The position numbers and the translations under genes are program-made. Shown in pieces: positions 5,040 to 17,299 of a DNA stretch of 35,340 nucleotides. This stretch comes from Deltaproteobacteria bacterium. Lineage in GTDB: Bacteria; Desulfobacterota; Dissulfuribacteria; Dissulfuribacterales; QOAL01. Every line of letters starts with the position of its first letter. The stretch's first letter is position 1. The stretch covers positions 1 through 35,340 of the forward strand of contig JAJRZR010000071.1 of the NCBI GenBank assembly GCA_024275145.1, read 5' to 3'. The notes under the pieces were generated by a model. The model worked only from the letters and a program-made list of their open reading frames with translations. It had not been told where the DNA came from and did no database searches.

Positions 5040-8000
5040 TTACATAAGAATGTTGTTTGTTATATCCGCACCCAGTTGCAGGAACTCCTTTAACGCCCGG
5101 GCGGTATGGGTATCTTTATTCAACAGCCTGTGAACAGGCCCTTGGAATAGCAGATGTCCGCCGGCATCACCCCCTTCGGGGCCAAGGTCGATTACCCAGT
5201 CTACCTGTTTTATCACCTCCAGGTTGTGTTCTATGATTAGCACCGTGTCCCCCCGTTCTACCAGCGCCTGGATGAGTTTCATCAGCCTTGCGACATCTGC
5301 CATGTGCAGTCCGGTGGAAGGTTCGTCCAGGATATAAAGGGTCTTACCCCTTCTTCCCCTTATGAATTCGGCTGCAAGTTTTATCCGTTGGGCCTCGCCG
5401 CCTGACAGGCTAGGGCTTGCCTGCCCCAGGGTGAGGTAGCCAAGCCCTAGCCCGCACAGCACCTCGAGTCCCCTGGCCAGGGCCGGTACCGCTTTGAAGA
5501 ATTCCCTTGCCTCCTCCATGGTCATGTCCAGTACCTGCGCAATGTTGCGGCCCTTGTAGCGTATCGAGAGGGTCTGCTCGTTGTAGCGGTTTCCGCCGCA
5601 TACCTCACAGGGGATGTAGACCCCAGGCAGGAATTTCATCTCCACCTTCAGCCTTCCCTGTCCCTTGCAGGCCCCGCATCTGCCTTCCTTGGTGTTGAAT
5701 GAGAATCGCCCCGCTTCCCATCCTTTGCTCCTGGATGCAGGTAGACCGGCAAAAAGGTTCCGGATGTGATCCATGAGCCCTACATAGGTGGCAGGGGTGG
5801 ATCTTGGGGTCCTGCCTATGGGACAATGGTCCACTACCAGCACCCTGGACAGGTCATTGTATCCTTCCAGGCCCTTCAGACAGTGGAGTCGCCTTTCCTC
5901 CACTGGTCTCTTGGAACGGGACAGTGCGGTTTCCAGGTTCCTGTGCAACACATCCATCACCAGGGTGGACTTTCCGGAGCCGGATACCCCGGTCACCCCG
6001 GTGAGGGCAGAAAGGGGGATCTTGACATCGATCCCCTTGAGATTTCTGGCCATGGCCCCATTTAGCTCCAGAAAGCCCCTGGGTTCCCTGTGCCTGGATG
6101 TTATCCTGTACCGGTTGTTGTCCTGCAGGGCGGAGGCGGTGAGTGATTCCCTGGCATTTTTGATCCCCCTGGGCGGGCCGGCATAGACCACCTTTCCGCC
6201 GGTCCTTCCGCCTCCAGGGCCAAGGTCCACCAGGAAGTCTGCGGCCTTGATGCATTCTTCGTCGTGTTCTACCACAAGCACCGTGTTGCCCTTGTCCCTT
6301 AGCCTCGAGAGGGCACGGAGTAACATGCGGTTATCCCTGGGATGCAGGCCAATAGTGGGCTCATCCAGGACATAACATACCCCTGAGAGATTGGAGCCTA
6401 GTTGGGCACAGATCCTTACCCTCTGCGCCTCCCCCTCTGATAATGTATGCCCTCCCCTGGAAAGGGAGAGATAGGATAGGCCCACATCGCACAGGAATGA
6501 CAGCCTGGAGGCGGCCTCCGAAACCAGCATGGTGGCCGGGCTACTGGTGTCTTCGTGAAACTCGCACTGGTTCAGGAATGTGAGGGCATCTGCAGCAGGC
6601 ATGGCGCATAAGGTACCTATGTCCATGCCCTTTATCCTGAAGGCAAGGGCCTCTGGCTTGAGCCTTGTACCAAGGCACTCCGGGCAGGTGCGTCCGTTGA
6701 TTTCCCCTAAGCCCTCACATCTGGGGCATGCCCCGGCCTCGGTATTGAAGGAGAAGAGCAATGGGTCAGGTGAAGGAAGGGATATATTACACTTGGGACA
6801 GGAAAGGCGGCGGCTCAAAAAGAGTTCCCCTCTGCGGCCCATCACCACCAGTTCCCCGCCACCTTCGTCCAGGGCCATGGAAATGGCCTTTGCCAGCCCC
6901 TCCATGTTGCCTTTGTTTATCAGCCTCCTTGCAACACACACCTCCACGGTGTGCTCTTTGAACCTGGAAAGGCTGGGTATCGGCGTTAGTTCCTGGAGCC
7001 TGCCGTCTATGCGTACCAGGCTGAAACCTGCCTTGGCAGCGGCTTCTAGTACCGGTCTGTGTAGGCCCTTACGTCTTTTGACCTTGGGTGCCAAAAACAG
7101 GACTTCCTCTCCATGGAACCGTTCAATCACCCTGCCAGCCATGTCCCCAGGCGCCCTTCCGGAGAGCATTTCACCGCACGTGGGGCAATAGGGCTTTCCG
7201 GCCCTGGCATAGAGAAGGCGCAGGTAGTGGTAGGCCTCTGTGAGCGTGCCCACGGTGGAGCGGGGCCCGGTCCTGCTGGTCCGTTGTTCGATGGCAACGG
7301 TGGGGGGAAGTCCGGTGAGTATGTCTACCTCAGGCTGTTCGTATAGTTTGAGGAATTGGCGGACGTAGGCCGGCAGGCTCTCTATGTAGCGGCGCTGGCC
7401 CTCGGCGAAGATGATGTCGAAGGCAAGGGTTGATTTTCCAGAACCTGAGATCCCAGTTATCACGGTAAGGCACTTTCTGGGTATCTCCAGCGAGATGTCC
7501 TTTAGGTTATGATGCCTGGCCCCTTCCATGTGGATGCCGCATGGAGGCTGGGGTAGGTTTCTATTTGTCTTGTATTGGCTGCTATCTACTCCTCCCTTGC
7601 CTTCCAGGTAACGGCTGAGCCAGCGTCCGGTTGCCGATTCTTTTATATCCAGGATGCCATCCACCGGCCCCTGGTATACGAGCCGTCCTCCCAGGGTGCC
7701 TCCTCCAGGGCCAAGATCCACTACCCAGTCGGCGGATCTCAAGACCTCCATGTGGTGCTCCACCAGAACCACTGTATGCCCCTTGTCCCTTAGCATGGCA
7801 AGGGCCTGTAACAACCGGGAGACGTCCTCCATGTGCAGTCCAACCGTTGGTTCGTCCAGGAGGAAAAGCGCGTTTTTACCTTGGGGCAGGAAGAGTTCCC
7901 TTGCAATCTTGAGCCGCTGGGATTCCCCTCCCGAAAGGGTGCTTAGAGGCTGGCCTAACCTGAGGTAGCCAAGGCCTACCCGCCTGGCCTGCTCGAGCCT

Positions 8001-10331
8001 CCTGGTTATGGACGGATGCCCGGCAAAGAATCCAATGGCCTCGGTGATGGTAAGCTCCAGGATCTCTGAAACATTCCTGCCATGGTAATGAACCGAAAGT
8101 ACCTGTGGCTGGAAACGCCTTCCCCTGCACTTGGGGCAGGGCAGATAGAGATCGGGCAGGAACTGCATCTCCACCACCTCCACTCCCAGCCCCTTGCACT
8201 GGGGACATTGCCCTAAGCTGGAGTTGAAGGAAAAGGTGGAGGGTGTGAATCCTAGTTCCTTGGCCTCTGGGGTGCGGGCAAGGAGTGGGCGGATGTGGTC
8301 ATAGGCCTTTAGATAGGTGGCAGGGTTGGCCCTGGGGCTTTTGCCTATAGTGGCCTGATCCAGGAGGACTATCTGGTCCATGTCCTGGGTTCCTGTGATC
8401 TTTTCGTACCTGCCCGGCCTTTCCGTTGGTTTGCCTTTCTGCCTCAGGATTCCCCTGTACAGGACGAGCTCCAGCAGTGTGGACTTCCCGGAACCTGATG
8501 GTCCTGTAATAACCGTAATTCCATGGCGAGGGAACCCTACATCTATGTCCCTGAGGTTGTTTTCTGCTGCACCCTTTACCCTGACAAATCCTGAAAATTT
8601 CCTTTTACCCCTTGGCAAGGCCTTTGGTCTGGTTACCTTTTCCATAGCCATGGCGGTAGGGGTCTGCAGCTTCAAGAGATTTTCAGGCATTCCGGCAAAG
8701 AGCAATTTCCCGCCGTGTTCCCCTGCACCTGGTCCCAGATCCAGCACGTAATCCGAGGCCAGGATGACCCCTGGGTCGTGTTCCACAACTATCACGGTAT
8801 TTCCCCCGGCAGAGAGCCTCCTCATTAGGTCGATTATCCTGTCCGTGTCCATGGGATGGAGACCGGTAGTGGGTTCGTCCAGCACGTACAAGGTCTCTAC
8901 GAGTTCCGAGGAAAGTGCCCTGGTAAGCATTACCCTTGCGACCTCTCCCCCGGAAAGTGTCCTGCTCTGCCTGTCCAGTGTCAGGTAGTGGAGCCCTACT
9001 TCTTCAAGATATTCGAGGCGCCTGGTAACCTCTTTTGCAAGGAGCACCGATGCCCTGTCGAGTCCTGTATCAAGGCGCAGGAGTTCCTTTATCCACCCAA
9101 GTGCCCTTGGTATTTCCATAGCATAGAAATCGGGAAGGGCCAGCGCATTCAGGCGGAATGCCTTGATTCCTGGACCAAATCTGCTCCCCTGGCAGGCCGG
9201 GCATTTCAGGTAGGCCCTGTAACGGGACAGGATTATCCTCACATGGGTCTTATAGCGTTTGGATTCCAGCCACTGGAAGAACCCCTCTACCCCATACCAG
9301 TTCCCGTGTCCCAGAAGGACGCGATCCCTTGCCTCCCTGGGAAGATCCTTCCAGGGCACATCCAGGGGAATACCTGCCTGCCTGGCATATCTTGTAAGAT
9401 CCTCTTTGATCTCCCATGCGGATGGCATCTCCAGGATGGTTATGGCTCCATCTCCTATGGAGATGGCCTTGTCCGGGATCACTAGATCCCAGTCCACCCC
9501 TATCACCCTACCGAACCCGTGGCATTCGGGGCAGGCCCCAACCGGGCTATTGAATGAAAAAAGCCCCGGACTCCGCACTGGCACCTTGAAGCCGCATTCG
9601 GGGCACCGGTTTCTGTTACTGAAAACAAGGGGCTTGCCGTAGGGCAGGTAAACCATGACCTTGTCGGACATGCGGAGACCCTGTTCGAAGGCCTCAAGGA
9701 GCCTTGTAAGGTCACTGCCCCTGATCCTCAGGCGGTCCAACACCACCTCTATTTCTTCAGGTGCCTCTTCAAGGGAATCCATGTCGCGGATTCTTTGGTC
9801 CACAAAGGCCCTGAAGTATCCTGCCTGGATCAGGCCATCCCGCAGAAGGGACGGGTTCTCCCTGGCGACCACCCTGGCGGTTATAGTGACCGTGTTACCC
9901 TGGTGGCCTGACAAGAGGCTACGGGCAGCAGAAATGGGATCATATACCTGGACAGGCGCATGGCATGCGGGGCACCATGGGGTTGATGCCCTGTAGAAGA
10001 GCATCTTCATGAAGTGTGTTATCTCGGTGAGGGTGCCTACCGTGGAGCGGGAACTCTTGACCGGATTGGTCTGGCCGATGGCCACTGCCGGCGGTATGGA
10101 ATCTATCTCCAGAACGTCAGGCCTGGGCAGGCGTTCCAGGTACTGCCTTATATAGGCCGAGAATGTCTCGGCATATCGTCGCTGTCCTTCGGCGTAGAGG
10201 GTGTCAAAGGCAAGTGAACTCTTTCCGGAGCCTGAGACCCCGGTTATGCAGATCATCCGATGGAGGGGTAGGGTGAGATCAAATCCCTGTAGGTTGTGTT
10301 GATGGATGCGCTTTATGTCTATGGACTTCAT
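5040..10331 (-). CDS. uvrA: Tandem (double-length) excinuclease ABC subunit A
   Basis: A 1763-residue DNA-damage recognition ATPase of nucleotide excision repair, formed by two UvrA units in one chain (junction near residue 930) where ordinary UvrA is about 940. Four Walker A motifs are seen near residues 31 (GVSGSGKSS), 609 (GPSGSGKST), 962 (GISGSGKST) and 1455 (GVSGSGKST), each with a signature and Walker B. Signatures are LSGGEVARV, LSGGESQRL, LSEGEAQRV (degenerate) and LSGGEAQRI. Zinc modules of the CxxC type occur in both halves, and both keep an insertion after the first Walker A equivalent to the UvrB-binding domain. The second half resembles canonical UvrA but has a shortened signature domain. 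The architecture recalls the double-length UvrA known from Chlamydia. No strong Shine-Dalgarno precedes the ATG at 10331. Confidence 0.96.
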   Translation of the reverse strand: MKSIDIKRIHQHNLQGFDLTLPLHRMICITGVSGSGKSSLAFDTLYAEGQRRYAETFSAYIRQYLERLPRPDVLEIDSIPPAVAIGQTNPVKSSRSTVGTLTEITHFMKMLFYRASTPWCPACHAPVQVYDPISAARSLLSGHQGNTVTITARVVARENPSLLRDGLIQAGYFRAFVDQRIRDMDSLEEAPEEIEVVLDRLRIRGSDLTRLLEAFEQGLRMSDKVMVYLPYGKPLVFSNRNRCPECGFKVPVRSPGLFSFNSPVGACPECHGFGRVIGVDWDLVIPDKAISIGDGAITILEMPSAWEIKEDLTRYARQAGIPLDVPWKDLPREARDRVLLGHGNWYGVEGFFQWLESKRYKTHVRIILSRYRAYLKCPACQGSRFGPGIKAFRLNALALPDFYAMEIPRALGWIKELLRLDTGLDRASVLLAKEVTRRLEYLEEVGLHYLTLDRQSRTLSGGEVARVMLTRALSSELVETLYVLDEPTTGLHPMDTDRIIDLMRRLSAGGNTVIVVEHDPGVILASDYVLDLGPGAGEHGGKLLFAGMPENLLKLQTPTAMAMEKVTRPKALPRGKRKFSGFVRVKGAAENNLRDIDVGFPRHGITVITGPSGSGKSTLLELVLYRGILRQKGKPTERPGRYEKITGTQDMDQIVLLDQATIGKSPRANPATYLKAYDHIRPLLARTPEAKELGFTPSTFSFNSSLGQCPQCKGLGVEVVEMQFLPDLYLPCPKCRGRRFQPQVLSVHYHGRNVSEILELTITEAIGFFAGHPSITRRLEQARRVGLGYLRLGQPLSTLSGGESQRLKIARELFLPQGKNALFLLDEPTVGLHMEDVSRLLQALAMLRDKGHTVVLVEHHMEVLRSADWVVDLGPGGGTLGGRLVYQGPVDGILDIKESATGRWLSRYLEGKGGVDSSQYKTNRNLPQPPCGIHMEGARHHNLKDISLEIPRKCLTVITGISGSGKSTLAFDIIFAEGQRRYIESLPAYVRQFLKLYEQPEVDILTGLPPTVAIEQRTSRTGPRSTVGTLTEAYHYLRLLYARAGKPYCPTCGEMLSGRAPGDMAGRVIERFHGEEVLFLAPKVKRRKGLHRPVLEAAAKAGFSLVRIDGRLQELTPIPSLSRFKEHTVEVCVARRLINKGNMEGLAKAISMALDEGGGELVVMGRRGELFLSRRLSCPKCNISLPSPDPLLFSFNTEAGACPRCEGLGEINGRTCPECLGTRLKPEALAFRIKGMDIGTLCAMPAADALTFLNQCEFHEDTSSPATMLVSEAASRLSFLCDVGLSYLSLSRGGHTLSEGEAQRVRICAQLGSNLSGVCYVLDEPTIGLHPRDNRMLLRALSRLRDKGNTVLVVEHDEECIKAADFLVDLGPGGGRTGGKVVYAGPPRGIKNARESLTASALQDNNRYRITSRHREPRGFLELNGAMARNLKGIDVKIPLSALTGVTGVSGSGKSTLVMDVLHRNLETALSRSKRPVEERRLHCLKGLEGYNDLSRVLVVDHCPIGRTPRSTPATYVGLMDHIRNLFAGLPASRSKGWEAGRFSFNTKEGRCGACKGQGRLKVEMKFLPGVYIPCEVCGGNRYNEQTLSIRYKGRNIAQVLDMTMEEAREFFKAVPALARGLEVLCGLGLGYLTLGQASPSLSGGEAQRIKLAAEFIRGRRGKTLYILDEPSTGLHMADVARLMKLIQALVERGDTVLIIEHNLEVIKQVDWVIDLGPEGGDAGGHLLFQGPVHRLLNKDTHTARALKEFLQLGADITNNILM

Positions 10332-12091: not shown

Positions 12092-13180
12092 ATGTCAGCC
12101 AACAGGGAAAGCAAAAACGGCCATGTAAATAGAAGAGGGACAAGATGGCCCTTGTCCCTATGGTTGGCCATCGTATCAGCCATCATCATAGCCTTGTTCG
12201 CGTTTCCGGGTACGACTTGGCCACTGGTCATACACAGGATTCTCTGGCCTCTGGTACGGCTTTTACTAATCATGTCGGCAAGCCTTGGTCTCAGTGCCGT
12301 GGTAGAGGGGATGGGATGGTCTAGATTCGTGGCCAGTCTTGCCAGGCCCCTTATGCGTCTTGGCAATCTCAGTGACTGGAGTGGTACGGCATTTACCACC
12401 GCATTCCTATCCGGTGTCGCAGCCAGCACCCTTCTCTGGAATGCATACCAGGATGGCAGGATCTCAAGACGGGAGATGATACTTGCCACGTTGATGAATC
12501 TGGGCCTGCCATCCTATATACTTCACCTTCCCGTAACCTTTGCCATCATCGTACCCCTAGTCGGTTCCGCCGGTCTTATTTACATGACGATAACCTTCCT
12601 GGCCGCTGTACTCAGGACACTCGTGGTGCTCGCCGTCGGGCGCCTATTTTTGAAAAGGATACCAGGTAGCCTCAACGAGGTGGACATACCTCATGCAGGA
12701 GCGGCTACAGGGGGTGAAGACAGGAAGAAAAGGATTAGGCGGCTTCTCGGAGTGTACCTTTCGGACAGGCTGTCCAGGATCGTCATGTATACCGTGCCCA
12801 TCTATATACTGGTGGTGCTTCTTCAGGAGTGGGGCTTTTTCACGTGGCTCCAGGGAGCCGCCACCTCTCTCGTAAGGCTCAAGGCCTTTCCGGTAGAGGG
12901 GATCTCTGTGGTCGTGTTTAGTATAGTCGCAGAATTTACCGCAGGGGCCGCTGCCGCAGGGGCTATGTTAAGCGAAGGGGTGTTGACAGTGAAAGAGACG
13001 GTCCTTGCCCTCATCATGGGTAACATTGTTGCCACTCCTGTCCGCGCCCTCAGGCACCAGCTACCAAGGTATCTGGGGATATATCAACCCAAGACGGGTA
13101 TACAACTGCTGCTGGCAGGTCAAACCATGAGGATAATCAGTGTGATGATAGTGGGATCGATTTATTATTTCTTTGTTTGA
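12092..13180 (+). CDS. Nucleoside-recognition (GATE) domain membrane protein
   Basis: A 362-residue polytopic inner-membrane protein with about eight hydrophobic segments. Two related halves are visible: 'LLLIMSASLGLSAVVEGMGWSRFVASLARPLMRL...' with 'TAFTTAFLSGVAASTLLWNAYQDGRI', and 'IPIYILVVLLQEWGFFTWLQGA' with 'FSIVAEFTAGAAAAGAMLSEGVL...LIMGNIVATPVRALRHQLP'. The arrangement matches the GATE/nucleoside-recognition family also found in spore maturation proteins and in nucleoside transporters; the actual substrate in these stand-alone bacterial forms is unknown. The ATG at 12092 has only a weak ribosome-binding site. It ends 29 nt before the peptidase-ChaN fusion and is probably co-transcribed with it. 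Confidence 0.75.
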   Translation: MSANRESKNGHVNRRGTRWPLSLWLAIVSAIIIALFAFPGTTWPLVIHRILWPLVRLLLIMSASLGLSAVVEGMGWSRFVASLARPLMRLGNLSDWSGTAFTTAFLSGVAASTLLWNAYQDGRISRREMILATLMNLGLPSYILHLPVTFAIIVPLVGSAGLIYMTITFLAAVLRTLVVLAVGRLFLKRIPGSLNEVDIPHAGAATGGEDRKKRIRRLLGVYLSDRLSRIVMYTVPIYILVVLLQEWGFFTWLQGAATSLVRLKAFPVEGISVVVFSIVAEFTAGAAAAGAMLSEGVLTVKETVLALIMGNIVATPVRALRHQLPRYLGIYQPKTGIQLLLAGQTMRIISVMIVGSIYYFFV

Positions 13181-13209
13181 AGAGATCAATACGTTTGAAA
13201 GGAGCCCTT

Positions 13210-16200
13210 ATGAAATATGTTTTGATAACCCTTGCCTGTTTGCTTGTCGTTTGTCACGTGGATCACATCTGGGCAATGGAAACAGGCCGGCAGTACTATG
13301 ACCGCTATCCCCTGTTTCATCTGGACATAGGTCTGGATTTCAAGAAGGCCGTGGTGAATGGACTGGCATGGTTCGACCTGGAATCAGGTGGAAAGGTGTC
13401 GTTGGACATCAATGGCATAGAGGTGCTGGGTGTCTCGCTTGCCGGGCACGACGTCGGCCATATGGTACAGGGAATGCTTACTATAGGTCCGGTAGGTAAC
13501 AGCGGAAGGGTTGAGATCAGGTTCAGGAAGATGTTTCCCGAATCGTCCGGTACAGGATATGGCGGGGCAGATACGGGGGACTTCTTCACGGGCGATTCCG
13601 CCGTGCTGCTGGACAATTGGTGCCCAACTTTTCCCGGTCTTGCCAGATATGAACTCAAGGTCAGGGTACCCGCGGGTGTCACGGCTGTTTCAGAGGCCGA
13701 CAAGGTTTTGGTCAAGGGCGATGGGACTACTAGATCCTTCTCCTTTGTGTTCCCATATCCCAGGCCGGGGATCTCCCTGGTGGCAGGTCCATATTCGATT
13801 TCAAGTACGCATTACAAGGGGATAGAGATCGCCACGTATTTCTTTAAAGAAGATGAGGGGCTTGCCGCCGGGTATCTCAAGAAGGTCAGGCATTACCTCG
13901 ATCTTTATCAGGGCCTGCTCGGCCAGTATCCATACCGGCGTTTTGCAGTGGTGGAAAACAGGGCGCCGACCGGCTACGGCATGGCCACTTTTACACTCCT
14001 CGGTCAGCAGGTTGCCAGACTGCCCTTCATAGTGGATACCTCGCTGGGTCATGAATTCCTGCATTCATGGTTTGGCAATTCCGTTTACGTGGATATGGAC
14101 CAGGGTAACTGGTGTGAGGGATTGACCGTATATCTGGCTGATTATAGGTATGAAGCGGACAAGGGCAAGGGCGTGGAGTACAGGCACCAGATACTGACCA
14201 ACTATCAGGCCTATGTGCATGGAGAGAATGCCATGTCCCTTGCCGAATTCAGGCAAGGTGTTGACAAGGCCTCCAGGGCGGTGGGCTATGGAAAGGGGGC
14301 CATGGTTTTCCACATGCTTGAATCCATCATAGGGACGGAAAGATTTGACAGCGGACTTAGGGCCTTTATCAAGGAGTTCATGTTTCGCAGGGCATCATGG
14401 TCAGATATCGAATCGGTATTTTCCAGGGTGTCGGGTGAAAAACTTTCGGGTTTTTTCGACCAATGGCTTCATAGGAGGGACGTACCAGGGCTGGAGATAA
14501 AGAGCGCCAGGGTGAGGACCCTTTTTTCAGGAAAGAAGGAGACGGAGATAGAGATACTCCAGACGACGGAGAAGCCCTACGATTTGTCTGTCCCCGTGGT
14601 GCTTAAGGGCGCTGGTGATGACGAAAGGAGGATTATAAGGATATCAAAGGGCAGTGAAAGGATAAGGCTTGTCTCTGATAAGGAGCCATGGGAGGTGGTC
14701 GTAGATGGTGCCTTTGATGTCATGAGAGGGCTCCATGACGAGGAATACCCGCCGGTACTTTCAAGGCTGTTAGGGGCTGAACGCAGGTTGTTCGTGGTAT
14801 CAGGCCATGACAGGGGGATATACAAGGGAATTGCAGCCATTTTAAGGGAGAAGGGTTTCTTGTATAAGAGGGCAGAGGAACTCGACCATCGTGTCCTTTC
14901 AAACGCCTCCCTTTTGGTACTTGGCAGGCCACAAGGACATATGTTGCGTCTGTTCTGGCCCGTTGAATCCCCTGAGGATGGGGTGGTCTTGAAGGTCCTG
15001 GACAATCCATTCAACCACATGCAGGTAGTGGCCAATCTCCAGGCATCTTCTGCCCAGGAGCTGGACATGATAATTCCGAGGCTGTTTCATTACGGGAAAT
15101 ACAGTTCCTTAAGATTTGAGAATGGAAAGGTCGTGGCCAAAAGTATAAAAAAGACCGAAAATGGTATAAGAGGCCGTGTTGCCAGGGAACCGAGGGGCAT
15201 AGCAGCCAGGGATTTGACCCCTATGGGTCGTATCCTGGATACCGTTTCCGGCAGTAAGGTGATCTATGTCGCCGAAAAGCACGATCGCATGGGGGATCAC
15301 ATGGCGCAGTTCGAGGCTATAAAGGGGCTCTATGACCGAGGGATTCCGCTCAGTGTCGGCATGGAGATGTTCCAGCGGCCTTTTCAAGGGGTCATAGACC
15401 AGTACATGGCAGGCAGGATCAATGAACGTCAGTTCCTTGAAAAGACAGAGTACTTCAAGAGATGGGGCTTCAATTACCGTTTTTATAGGCCAATAGTAGA
15501 GTTTTGCAAAAAGAACCATATACCCTTGGTGGCCTTGAATCTCAGGAGTGAGATCTCCAAGCAGGTGGCAAGGGAAGGGCTGGCCTCTTTGTCAAAGGAA
15601 GAACGGGGACAACTACCGAAGGAAATCGATCTGTCAAACACCGCTTACAGAGATAGGCTGCAGGAAATATACGATGAGCACGATGCCATGGCAGGCCTGT
15701 CGAATTTTAACAATTTTTTCGAGGCCCAGGTATGCTGGGACGAGACCATGGCCCAGTCCATATCCGACTTCTTGAAGGATCATCCTGACAGTCACATGGT
15801 AGTTATCGTGGGTATGGGGCACGTCATGTACAGGTACGGAATCCCTGATCGGGTCGAGAGAAGGGGGATAAAGGCGCAATCCGTCATCGTGAACGACCCG
15901 GAAACGGCGCTCGAACCGGCTATGGCAGACTATTTCATGTTTTCCCCTGAGGAAGAGGCACCCTTTGTGGCAAGGCTTGGCGTAATGCTCATGCCTTCAA
16001 AAGGGCACCTAGTGGTAAAGGACGTCATGCCGGGCAGCCCAGCCATGCAAGGCGGGATCAAATCCGGGGATATACTATTGGCCTTTGATGGTCAGCCTGT
16101 AAAGGACATCTATGCCCTAAAGCTGGATCTCTTCTTCAAAAAGAAAGGCCAGCGGGCCAGGCTCAAGATTAAGAGAATAATTCGGTTTGCACCGGATAAG

Positions 16201-16278
16201 ATACTCGATCTTGAAACAGGACCGTTTGAACCATTCTCCTTCGGTATGTCGCCTGGCCATCATCATATGTCGAGATAG
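13210..16278 (+). CDS. Exported M1-type metallopeptidase fused to ChaN and PDZ domains
   Basis: A 1022-residue exported protein with three recognisable modules. The signal peptide (MKYVLITLACLLVVCHVDHIWA) is followed by an M1-like aminopeptidase region: zinc motif HEFLH (H281, E282, H285), a third ligand E303 in GNWCEG, and catalytic tyrosine Y360 in VGYGKG. An unassigned spacer (about 430-660) leads to a ChaN-like domain ('IYVAEKHDRMGDHMAQFEAI' at 685, 'LSVGMEMFQRPFQ', 'VVIVGMGHVMYRYGIP'), a family linked to iron or haem uptake. A PDZ domain (about 917-990, 'VKDVMPGSPAMQGGIKSGDILLAFDG') ends the chain. GGAG with AAAG upstream at 5 nt fixes the ATG at 13210; a TTG start at 13177 is less likely. 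It follows the GATE-domain gene closely. Confidence 0.88.
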   Translation: MKYVLITLACLLVVCHVDHIWAMETGRQYYDRYPLFHLDIGLDFKKAVVNGLAWFDLESGGKVSLDINGIEVLGVSLAGHDVGHMVQGMLTIGPVGNSGRVEIRFRKMFPESSGTGYGGADTGDFFTGDSAVLLDNWCPTFPGLARYELKVRVPAGVTAVSEADKVLVKGDGTTRSFSFVFPYPRPGISLVAGPYSISSTHYKGIEIATYFFKEDEGLAAGYLKKVRHYLDLYQGLLGQYPYRRFAVVENRAPTGYGMATFTLLGQQVARLPFIVDTSLGHEFLHSWFGNSVYVDMDQGNWCEGLTVYLADYRYEADKGKGVEYRHQILTNYQAYVHGENAMSLAEFRQGVDKASRAVGYGKGAMVFHMLESIIGTERFDSGLRAFIKEFMFRRASWSDIESVFSRVSGEKLSGFFDQWLHRRDVPGLEIKSARVRTLFSGKKETEIEILQTTEKPYDLSVPVVLKGAGDDERRIIRISKGSERIRLVSDKEPWEVVVDGAFDVMRGLHDEEYPPVLSRLLGAERRLFVVSGHDRGIYKGIAAILREKGFLYKRAEELDHRVLSNASLLVLGRPQGHMLRLFWPVESPEDGVVLKVLDNPFNHMQVVANLQASSAQELDMIIPRLFHYGKYSSLRFENGKVVAKSIKKTENGIRGRVAREPRGIAARDLTPMGRILDTVSGSKVIYVAEKHDRMGDHMAQFEAIKGLYDRGIPLSVGMEMFQRPFQGVIDQYMAGRINERQFLEKTEYFKRWGFNYRFYRPIVEFCKKNHIPLVALNLRSEISKQVAREGLASLSKEERGQLPKEIDLSNTAYRDRLQEIYDEHDAMAGLSNFNNFFEAQVCWDETMAQSISDFLKDHPDSHMVVIVGMGHVMYRYGIPDRVERRGIKAQSVIVNDPETALEPAMADYFMFSPEEEAPFVARLGVMLMPSKGHLVVKDVMPGSPAMQGGIKSGDILLAFDGQPVKDIYALKLDLFFKKKGQRARLKIKRIIRFAPDKILDLETGPFEPFSFGMSPGHHHMSR

Positions 16279-16364: not shown

Positions 16365-17207
16365 ATGAAATCAGTAAATATCGCCATAAGCGTAAATACA
16401 TTGGTTACGTGCTTGAAATTCTTTGTCGCCCTTACCGGGGGCAGCGCCACCATGCTCGCCGAGGCCATCCACTCTCTGGCGGATACTGCCAACCAGGCGC
16501 TTCTATGGATAGGGCTCAAGAGAAGCAGAATAGGTCCGTCAAAGGAATTCCCCTTCGGTCGTGGCCAGGAAAGGTTCGTATGGGGCCTCATATCCGCCTG
16601 CGGAATATTCTTTGTTGGGGCGGGCGTTACGGTCTATCATGGGATACACGGACTGATGTATGGTCACGAACCGGAGATAAACCTTTGGACCGTTGTGGTT
16701 CTGGCGGTTTCCTTCTTTGCAGAAGGCGGATCGCTTTTGGTCGCCTGGCACGAAAGGAAAAGGGGCGATACAGCCAATCTGGCGGTACTGATGGAGGACA
16801 GCGCGGCGGTCATAGGTGTGATTATAGCGTGCATCGCCTTGACGATGGCCCACTATACAGGTAAGCCGTATTGGGATTCCATGGGCTCCATCGTGATCGG
16901 GATCATCCTTGGAATCATTGCTATCATACTTATAAGGGAGAACCTCCACTACCTGATAGAGAAGTCATCCCCCAGGGAACTTCAGCAAGAGGTCAGAAAG
17001 GTGCTTGAGTCCTTTCCCCTGGTGGAAGATGTAAAGGATATCAGGATGATAGTTCTGACCCCAGAGTCCCACACAGTAAGGGCCGAAGTGGAGATCAATG
17101 GTTATCTACTGGTCAAGGAAATGGAAGACAGCCTCAGGGATGATTTCCAGGAGGTCGAGACCTTTGGCGATTTTTGCAGTTTTGTGCGGCCTTTGCAAAC
17201 AGGGTAA
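16365..17207 (+). CDS. Cation diffusion facilitator, ZnT9 (SLC30A9)-like, C-terminus frameshifted
   Basis: Inner-membrane exporter for zinc or another divalent metal. The reading frame gives 280 residues with about six membrane helices: 'TGGSATMLAEAIHSLADTANQALLWIGL' with the first metal-site motif HSLAD, the ZnT9-type loop 'EFPFGRGQERFVWGLISACGIFFVGAG', and 'AVLMEDSAAVIGVII', where the usual DH is replaced by ED as in ZnT9 relatives. A cytoplasmic domain follows ('SSPRELQQEVRKVLESFPLVEDVKDIRMIVLTPESHTVRAEVEI'). The frame stops at 17207, but the natural C-terminal tail is readable in another frame to 17299 (see next entry), so the gene is probably about 311 residues when intact. No strong ribosome-binding site precedes the ATG. 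Confidence 0.85.
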   Translation: MKSVNIAISVNTLVTCLKFFVALTGGSATMLAEAIHSLADTANQALLWIGLKRSRIGPSKEFPFGRGQERFVWGLISACGIFFVGAGVTVYHGIHGLMYGHEPEINLWTVVVLAVSFFAEGGSLLVAWHERKRGDTANLAVLMEDSAAVIGVIIACIALTMAHYTGKPYWDSMGSIVIGIILGIIAIILIRENLHYLIEKSSPRELQQEVRKVLESFPLVEDVKDIRMIVLTPESHTVRAEVEINGYLLVKEMEDSLRDDFQEVETFGDFCSFVRPLQTG

Positions 17208-17299
17208 CAAGGACGGTAGGAGCCAAGATAGACGAAATGGAAGATGCGCTGAAGAAGAAAATAACCTATTTGAAATACGTGGATATCAAACCATCTTAG
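17208..17299 (+). other. Out-of-frame C-terminal tail of the cation-efflux gene
   Basis: Shifting by -1 at or near the T5 run at 17171-17175 continues the protein as 'FLQFCAAFANRVTRTVGAK' and 'IDEMEDALKKKITYLKYVDIKPS' before a stop at 17297-17299. Such a tail is the expected end of a ZnT9-like protein (an amphipathic helix and a final strand ending near IxP). One missing T, whether a true mutation or an assembly error at the homopolymer, explains everything. A programmed shift is less likely because the slip site does not re-pair well. Confidence 0.7.

Follow-up and report, generated by a model that had tools for sequence, protein, structure and literature searches.

The window, by which we mean the whole stretch of 35,340 nucleotides analysed here, contains at 13210–16278 (+) an open reading frame that encodes 1022 amino acids, with an ATG at 13210 and a stop at 16278. 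A Pfam scan divides the product into an M1 match (residues 279–419, E = 1.7e-16), a ChaN match (residues 676–882, E = 2.3e-66) and a PDZ_2 match (residues 922–989, E = 1.1e-10), all of which exceed the gathering cut-offs; the initial annotation of three modules in one chain is thus borne out. We refer to this protein as the fusion. It would carry a single signal peptide for all of its modules, as had been correctly proposed: the N-terminus is hydrophobic in the window and in the homologues and, judged by eye, MKYVLITLACLLVVCHVDHIWA followed by ME looks like a Sec-like signal. The beta region that comes next (residues 30–125) is weakly conserved among homologues, and phmmer aligns the fusion to TRI-F3 from residue 36. 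A structural model of residues 24–668, built with the window and L003 sequences as input, reached a pLDDT of 33 and a pTM of 0.24 and was discarded as unusable. Besides the fusion, we found no M1 or ChaN gene in the window's genome.

The gene belongs to a cluster that is conserved across the window's order, where it stands between the genes for a Gate-domain membrane protein and a CDF transporter (table 1). The Gate-domain protein has a strongly conserved AEFTAGAAAAGAML-type segment and an HQLP motif; the window's copy scores below the Pfam cut-off. The CDF protein matches its family profile (TIGR01297, 140.7 bits against a cut-off of 82), and its TM2 retains the HxxxD of the FieF metal site, whereas the H/D of TM5 is out of register. 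Compared with L003, a T run near 17173 in the CDF gene (16365–17299) has lost one base, so that the conserved C-terminal part is read in another frame, up to 17299; this is either an assembly error or a real frameshift. Among the other window genes that were scanned are those for a universal stress protein, CitMHS transporters, an FGE-like factor, TauE, PPDK and a histidine kinase. A separate observation concerns 5040–10331 (−), a UvrA-like open reading frame whose 1763 amino acids make it roughly double the normal size; it contains two UvrA interaction domains.

Table 1. Features of the fusion gene and its neighbours in the window (residue numbers refer to the fusion protein).
Feature	Coordinates	Strand	Basis
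Gate-domain membrane protein	12092–13180	+	adjoins the fusion in 16/21 order loci
Shine–Dalgarno AAGGAG	13199–13204	+	sequence; 5 nt before ATG 13210
Putative N-terminal signal peptide, residues 1–22	13210–13275	+	hydrophobic N-terminus in window and homologues
N-terminal beta region, residues 30–125, in place of M1 domain I	13297–13584	+	phmmer match
M1-like catalytic module, residues 126–440	13585–14529	+	Pfam M1; profile match to puromycin-sensitive aminopeptidase, E = 1e-17
APTGYGM, residues 252–258, at the M1 GAMENW position; Glu replaced by T254	13963–13983	+	alignment; 81-sequence columns
HEFLH, residues 281–285; zinc ligands H281 and H285, base E282	14050–14064	+	conserved 81/81
E303, third zinc ligand, x17 after H285	14116–14118	+	conserved 81/81
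Y360, catalytic Tyr of M1	14287–14289	+	conserved 81/81
Beta-domain, residues 441–514, in place of M1 domain III	14530–14751	+	profile alignment, homologue conservation
‘Spacer’ domain, residues 515–665	14752–15204	+	family-conserved
ChaN / TIKI-superfamily domain, residues 676–882	15235–15855	+	PF04187, E = 2.3e-66; PDB 2g5g, E = 2.7e-9
E689-x-H691, first part of 2His/2Glu set	15274–15282	+	invariant
E719 of 2His/2Glu set	15364–15366	+	homologue columns
H871 in GMGH, of 2His/2Glu set	15820–15822	+	homologue columns
HtrA-type PDZ domain, residues 922–989	15973–16176	+	Pfam and phmmer matches
C-terminal tail GPFEPFSFGMSPGHHHMSR, His-bearing in the window's order	16219–16275	+	tail comparison
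CDF-family cation efflux transporter	16365–17207	+	adjoins the fusion in 19/21 order loci

Is the M1-like module a classical aminopeptidase? Membership of family M1 is clear from its score (PF01433, 60.9 bits against a gathering score of 27.7), and the zinc site is intact, as first described from HEFLH, E303 and Y360: H281, E282, H285, N300, W301, E303 and Y360 show no variation across the 81 homologues. The spacing of classical clan MA/M1 enzymes is HEXXH-x18-E (PMC10343166). The interval of 17 residues between H285 and E303, correctly noted at the outset as departing from this, recurs in 79 of the 81 homologues. Since the site around it is intact, we conclude from the alignment that x17 is the signature of an M1-like subfamily and not a defect. 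The term ‘aminopeptidase’ fares less well. The Glu of GAMENW binds the amino end of the substrate (PMC10343166); in the fusion APTGYG stands in its place, and in 78 of the 81 homologues the corresponding column holds T, S or V, whereas Glu occurs there in none. The score against the NCBIfam aminopeptidase N equivalogs is 37.9 bits, where the curated cut-off is 718.2. With the GAMENW Glu replaced throughout, classical aminopeptidase action is not supported.

The stretch from about 430 to 660 had been described as an unassigned spacer. Its first part, to about residue 514, is the tail of the M1 beta-domain, so that the description holds for residues 515–665 only, a separate conserved domain without a Pfam match that ends in HYGKYS..L.F..G. 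A profile of this domain searched against the PDB gave one marginal match, YckF (E = 0.1), which we did not use.

What of the ChaN domain? It is present whole (PF04187, 224 bits against a gathering score of 27.7, profile positions 2–213 of 213). It also carries the 2His/2Glu catalytic set of the TIKI superfamily as E689, H691, E719 and H871, invariant across the window's order and kept in every fused and adjacent ChaN sequence in which the column is present. In RRSP, a TIKI-superfamily endopeptidase, E3900, H3902, E3930 and H4030 are each essential, and ChaN is listed among its structural relatives (PMC6254334). In both proteins the second Glu lies 28 positions after the His (H691–E719 in the fusion, H3902–E3930 in RRSP). 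From these residues we infer that the ChaN domain of the fusion is catalytic. The alignment with 2g5g places EKH...E...H residues in C. jejuni ChaN also, though that protein is described as haem-binding; the 2His/2Glu set therefore permits catalysis but does not prove it. The literature searched yielded no enzyme activity for any member of the ChaN family.

The PDZ domain is of the HtrA type (PF13180, 42.1 bits against a gathering score of 27). Beyond it, the C-terminal tail contains at least one His in every member of the order, compared with 4 of 16 members outside it. This only suggests metal transfer, and it comes from one lineage, so that it is not independent evidence.

Might the cluster then be an envelope metal-homeostasis unit, in which CDF exporter and Gate protein work with a periplasmic metal sensor or buffer made of the zinc site, the ChaN site and the His tail? 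The constancy of the neighbours within the order (CDF adjacent in 19 and Gate in 16 of 21 loci) and the His-bearing tails speak for such a unit. But the tail difference is that of a single lineage, the FieF site residues are not aligned in the CDF, and no CDF or Gate gene was found beside the fused loci of other families. The core function of the fusion consequently does not need either partner, and we hold a metal-homeostasis unit to be quite improbable. One locus outside the window, L107 4013–7948 (−), has M1, ChaN, PDZ and CDF in frame over 1312 amino acids; we discounted it as evidence because an A7 run, a GAGG site and an ATG at the junction cast doubt on a genuine fusion: the CDF is probably translated alone, or a stop has been lost.

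A search for the same domain order elsewhere was productive. Forty of the 45 genomes examined from the window's order carry the M1/ChaN pieces of the fusion, most of them as one open frame of about 1020–1060 amino acids; it is missing or incomplete in G003, G013, G026, G034 and G037. About ten other families have the fusion as well. When the 345 genomes of the phylum were searched with a profile of the M1 part, 80 gave a match to the module, a few of these being weak matches to other M1 proteins. At 81 loci the module is fused to ChaN-PDZ in 38 and to M28 in 10, stands as a single M1-like gene with ChaN beside it in 10, and lacks such a partner in 23. The gene at L114 is a fragment of a fused gene interrupted by a run of N. 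An unrooted M1 tree places the fused sequences in two deep regions and gathers the remaining arrangements into a single well supported region, the exceptions being L076, L088, L115 and L131. No relatives were found in the viral contigs searched. Two findings had been named beforehand as fatal to the annotation, namely modules that are always separate and a non-functional zinc site; what we see instead is a zinc site kept in 81 of 81 homologues and a fusion that, by these comparisons, is old and conserved and not an artefact.

A few fusions have decayed. L168, L169 and L173 (family f83) have lost the M1 catalytic part, and L171 (family f39) the M1 zinc motif, and all four keep the ChaN 2His/2Glu set and the PDZ domain; L174 (family f39) has lost both sites. 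The first four bear on the idea that the M1-like half is the sole enzyme, with ChaN and PDZ serving as non-catalytic substrate-binding or chaperone domains. It is true that every member retaining the M1 catalytic part has an intact M1 site, and that substrate tethering is a common role of PDZ and accessory domains (PMC6411480). However, a ChaN set that outlasts the M1 zinc site points to selection on ChaN for itself, and we regard a sole M1-like enzyme as rather unlikely.

Are M1 and ChaN associated where they are not fused? Eight further families have an M1-like gene and a ChaN gene side by side on one strand, the ends mostly overlapping, and on a plasmid of Azoarcus sp. KH32C the ChaN-PDZ and M1 genes, the pair WP_015451851/WP_015451852, overlap by 4 nt. 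These separate neighbours represent at least two or three unrelated arrangements, one of them that in Azoarcus. ChaN occurs in 33 of 35 genomes with the M1 module as against 46 of 163 without it (Fisher p = 1.4e-13, kinship not corrected). A ChaN tree from a short search, with SH-aLRT support only, separates the fused domains, the downstream-adjacent genes and the L092/Azoarcus genes from one another and sets M1-linked ChaN apart from most unlinked ChaN genes. Since fused and adjacent ChaN fall in different clades, M1 and ChaN probably came together on more than one occasion. Two smaller observations concern individual loci. At L080 3008–7018 (+) ChaN genes flank the M1-like gene on either side and are each other's nearest relatives. 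In family f66 no ChaN gene adjoins the single M1-like gene, which is followed by a gene of about 305 amino acids without a Pfam match (L075 6480–7394, L077 6478–7386).

Families f55, f92, f32, f101 and f18 have an M28 peptidase, and usually a PDZ domain, behind the same M1 module. This exchange, the 2His/2Glu set of ChaN and the recurrent linkage argue for two cooperating protein-cutting sites rather than for the handling of haem or iron. The coupling of peptide cleavage to haem or iron handling suggested by the initial annotation derives from the Pfam name of PF04187, and we find no support for it. In its fuller form, the ChaN domain would bind haem or iron that the M1-like peptidase frees from (haemo)proteins in the periplasm. 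Such a role draws on the naming of PF04187 for haem binding, on the C. jejuni ChaN reported to bind haem, on the position of phuW, which we take to be a ChaN homologue, in the P. aeruginosa haem uptake set, and on a Bacteroides fragilis ChaN protein that changes together with HmuY and a TonB receptor. Against it, the scanned window genes include no haem or iron uptake gene, M28 takes the place of ChaN in sister proteins, and the genome's only ChaN is that of the fusion, beside which the lineage has a transporter of the cation-efflux type and not an importer. We judge a haem or iron function unlikely.

We therefore favour, at about even chances and from sequence comparison, an exported hydrolase that has two active sites and holds its substrate through the PDZ domain. 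The domain order, the conserved residues, the recurring linkage and the M28 exchange are seen directly in the sequences; export, catalysis at either site, the part played by PDZ and the supply of metal are deduced from them. The M1-like module, with its complete zinc site, would cut peptides in the periplasm; lacking the GAMEN amine anchor, it would probably not act as a classical aminopeptidase. The ChaN domain may be a TIKI-type hydrolase (2His/2Glu) acting on the same or the resulting peptides, and the C-terminal PDZ domain may hold substrates by their C-termini, the role that such domains have in HtrA and Ctp proteases. Within the window's order, metal exported into the same compartment by a dedicated CDF could load the enzyme, a speculative step. 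A broader generalization, that the ChaN branch of the TIKI superfamily is a peptidase partner, and that exported M1-like proteases repeatedly recruit ChaN or M28 behind one and the same module together with a PDZ tether, forming a two-site peptide processor, and in one order are loaded by their own CDF exporter, is put forward tentatively, as something we would not yet expect to hold.

A survey of 2019 listed among its uncharacterized families both ChaN-PDZ proteins and PDZ-bearing peptidases of the M61 and M28 types (PMC6411480). Our search found no paper on an M1-ChaN-PDZ chain, most subscription journals and domain-architecture databases lying outside its reach. The fusion is a new arrangement built from known domains. 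The haem-binding label of PF04187/ChaN stems from one structure and spreads by annotation; the fusions, adjacent genes and M28 exchange, in pointing to peptide hydrolysis, offer an alternative that is testable on one small domain. If true, it would define an M1-like subfamily without GAMEN and with a swappable partner domain, useful for understanding envelope protein turnover in such bacteria.

How does the fusion compare with known systems? With the M1 metallopeptidases (puromycin-sensitive aminopeptidase, aminopeptidase N, TRI factor F3, LTA4 hydrolase) it shares the HEXXH...E zinc site, the Tyr in Y-x-K-G, the W-F/W-G-N helix and the order of the beta-domains. It differs from them in having x17 rather than x18 and no GAMEN, in that no alpha-helical domain IV is recognized, a domain of about 150 amino acids without a Pfam match taking its place, and in scoring far below all NCBIfam aminopeptidase N cut-offs. 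With C. jejuni ChaN (2g5g) and ChaN-PDZ proteins such as DVU_3254 it has a whole ChaN domain in common, and ChaN followed by PDZ is the order of a described family (PMC6411480); unlike these, the fusion has an M1-like peptidase and a spacer domain upstream in the same chain. The TIKI enzymes (RRSP, Ere/Bcr135, Tiki) resemble it in a 2His/2Glu set that includes ExH and has its second Glu 28 positions after the His, but the fusion has no membrane-localization lobe and the activity of the ChaN branch is putative. HtrA and Ctp proteases likewise possess a PDZ_2 domain of the HtrA type, joined to a serine protease domain where the fusion has metallo- and TIKI-type domains. The M1-spacer-M28-PDZ proteins of the same phylum (L066, L068, L070–L072, L119–L121) match the fusion in their M1-like module, C-terminal PDZ and similar size, and carry an M28 aminopeptidase-type domain where the fusion has ChaN.
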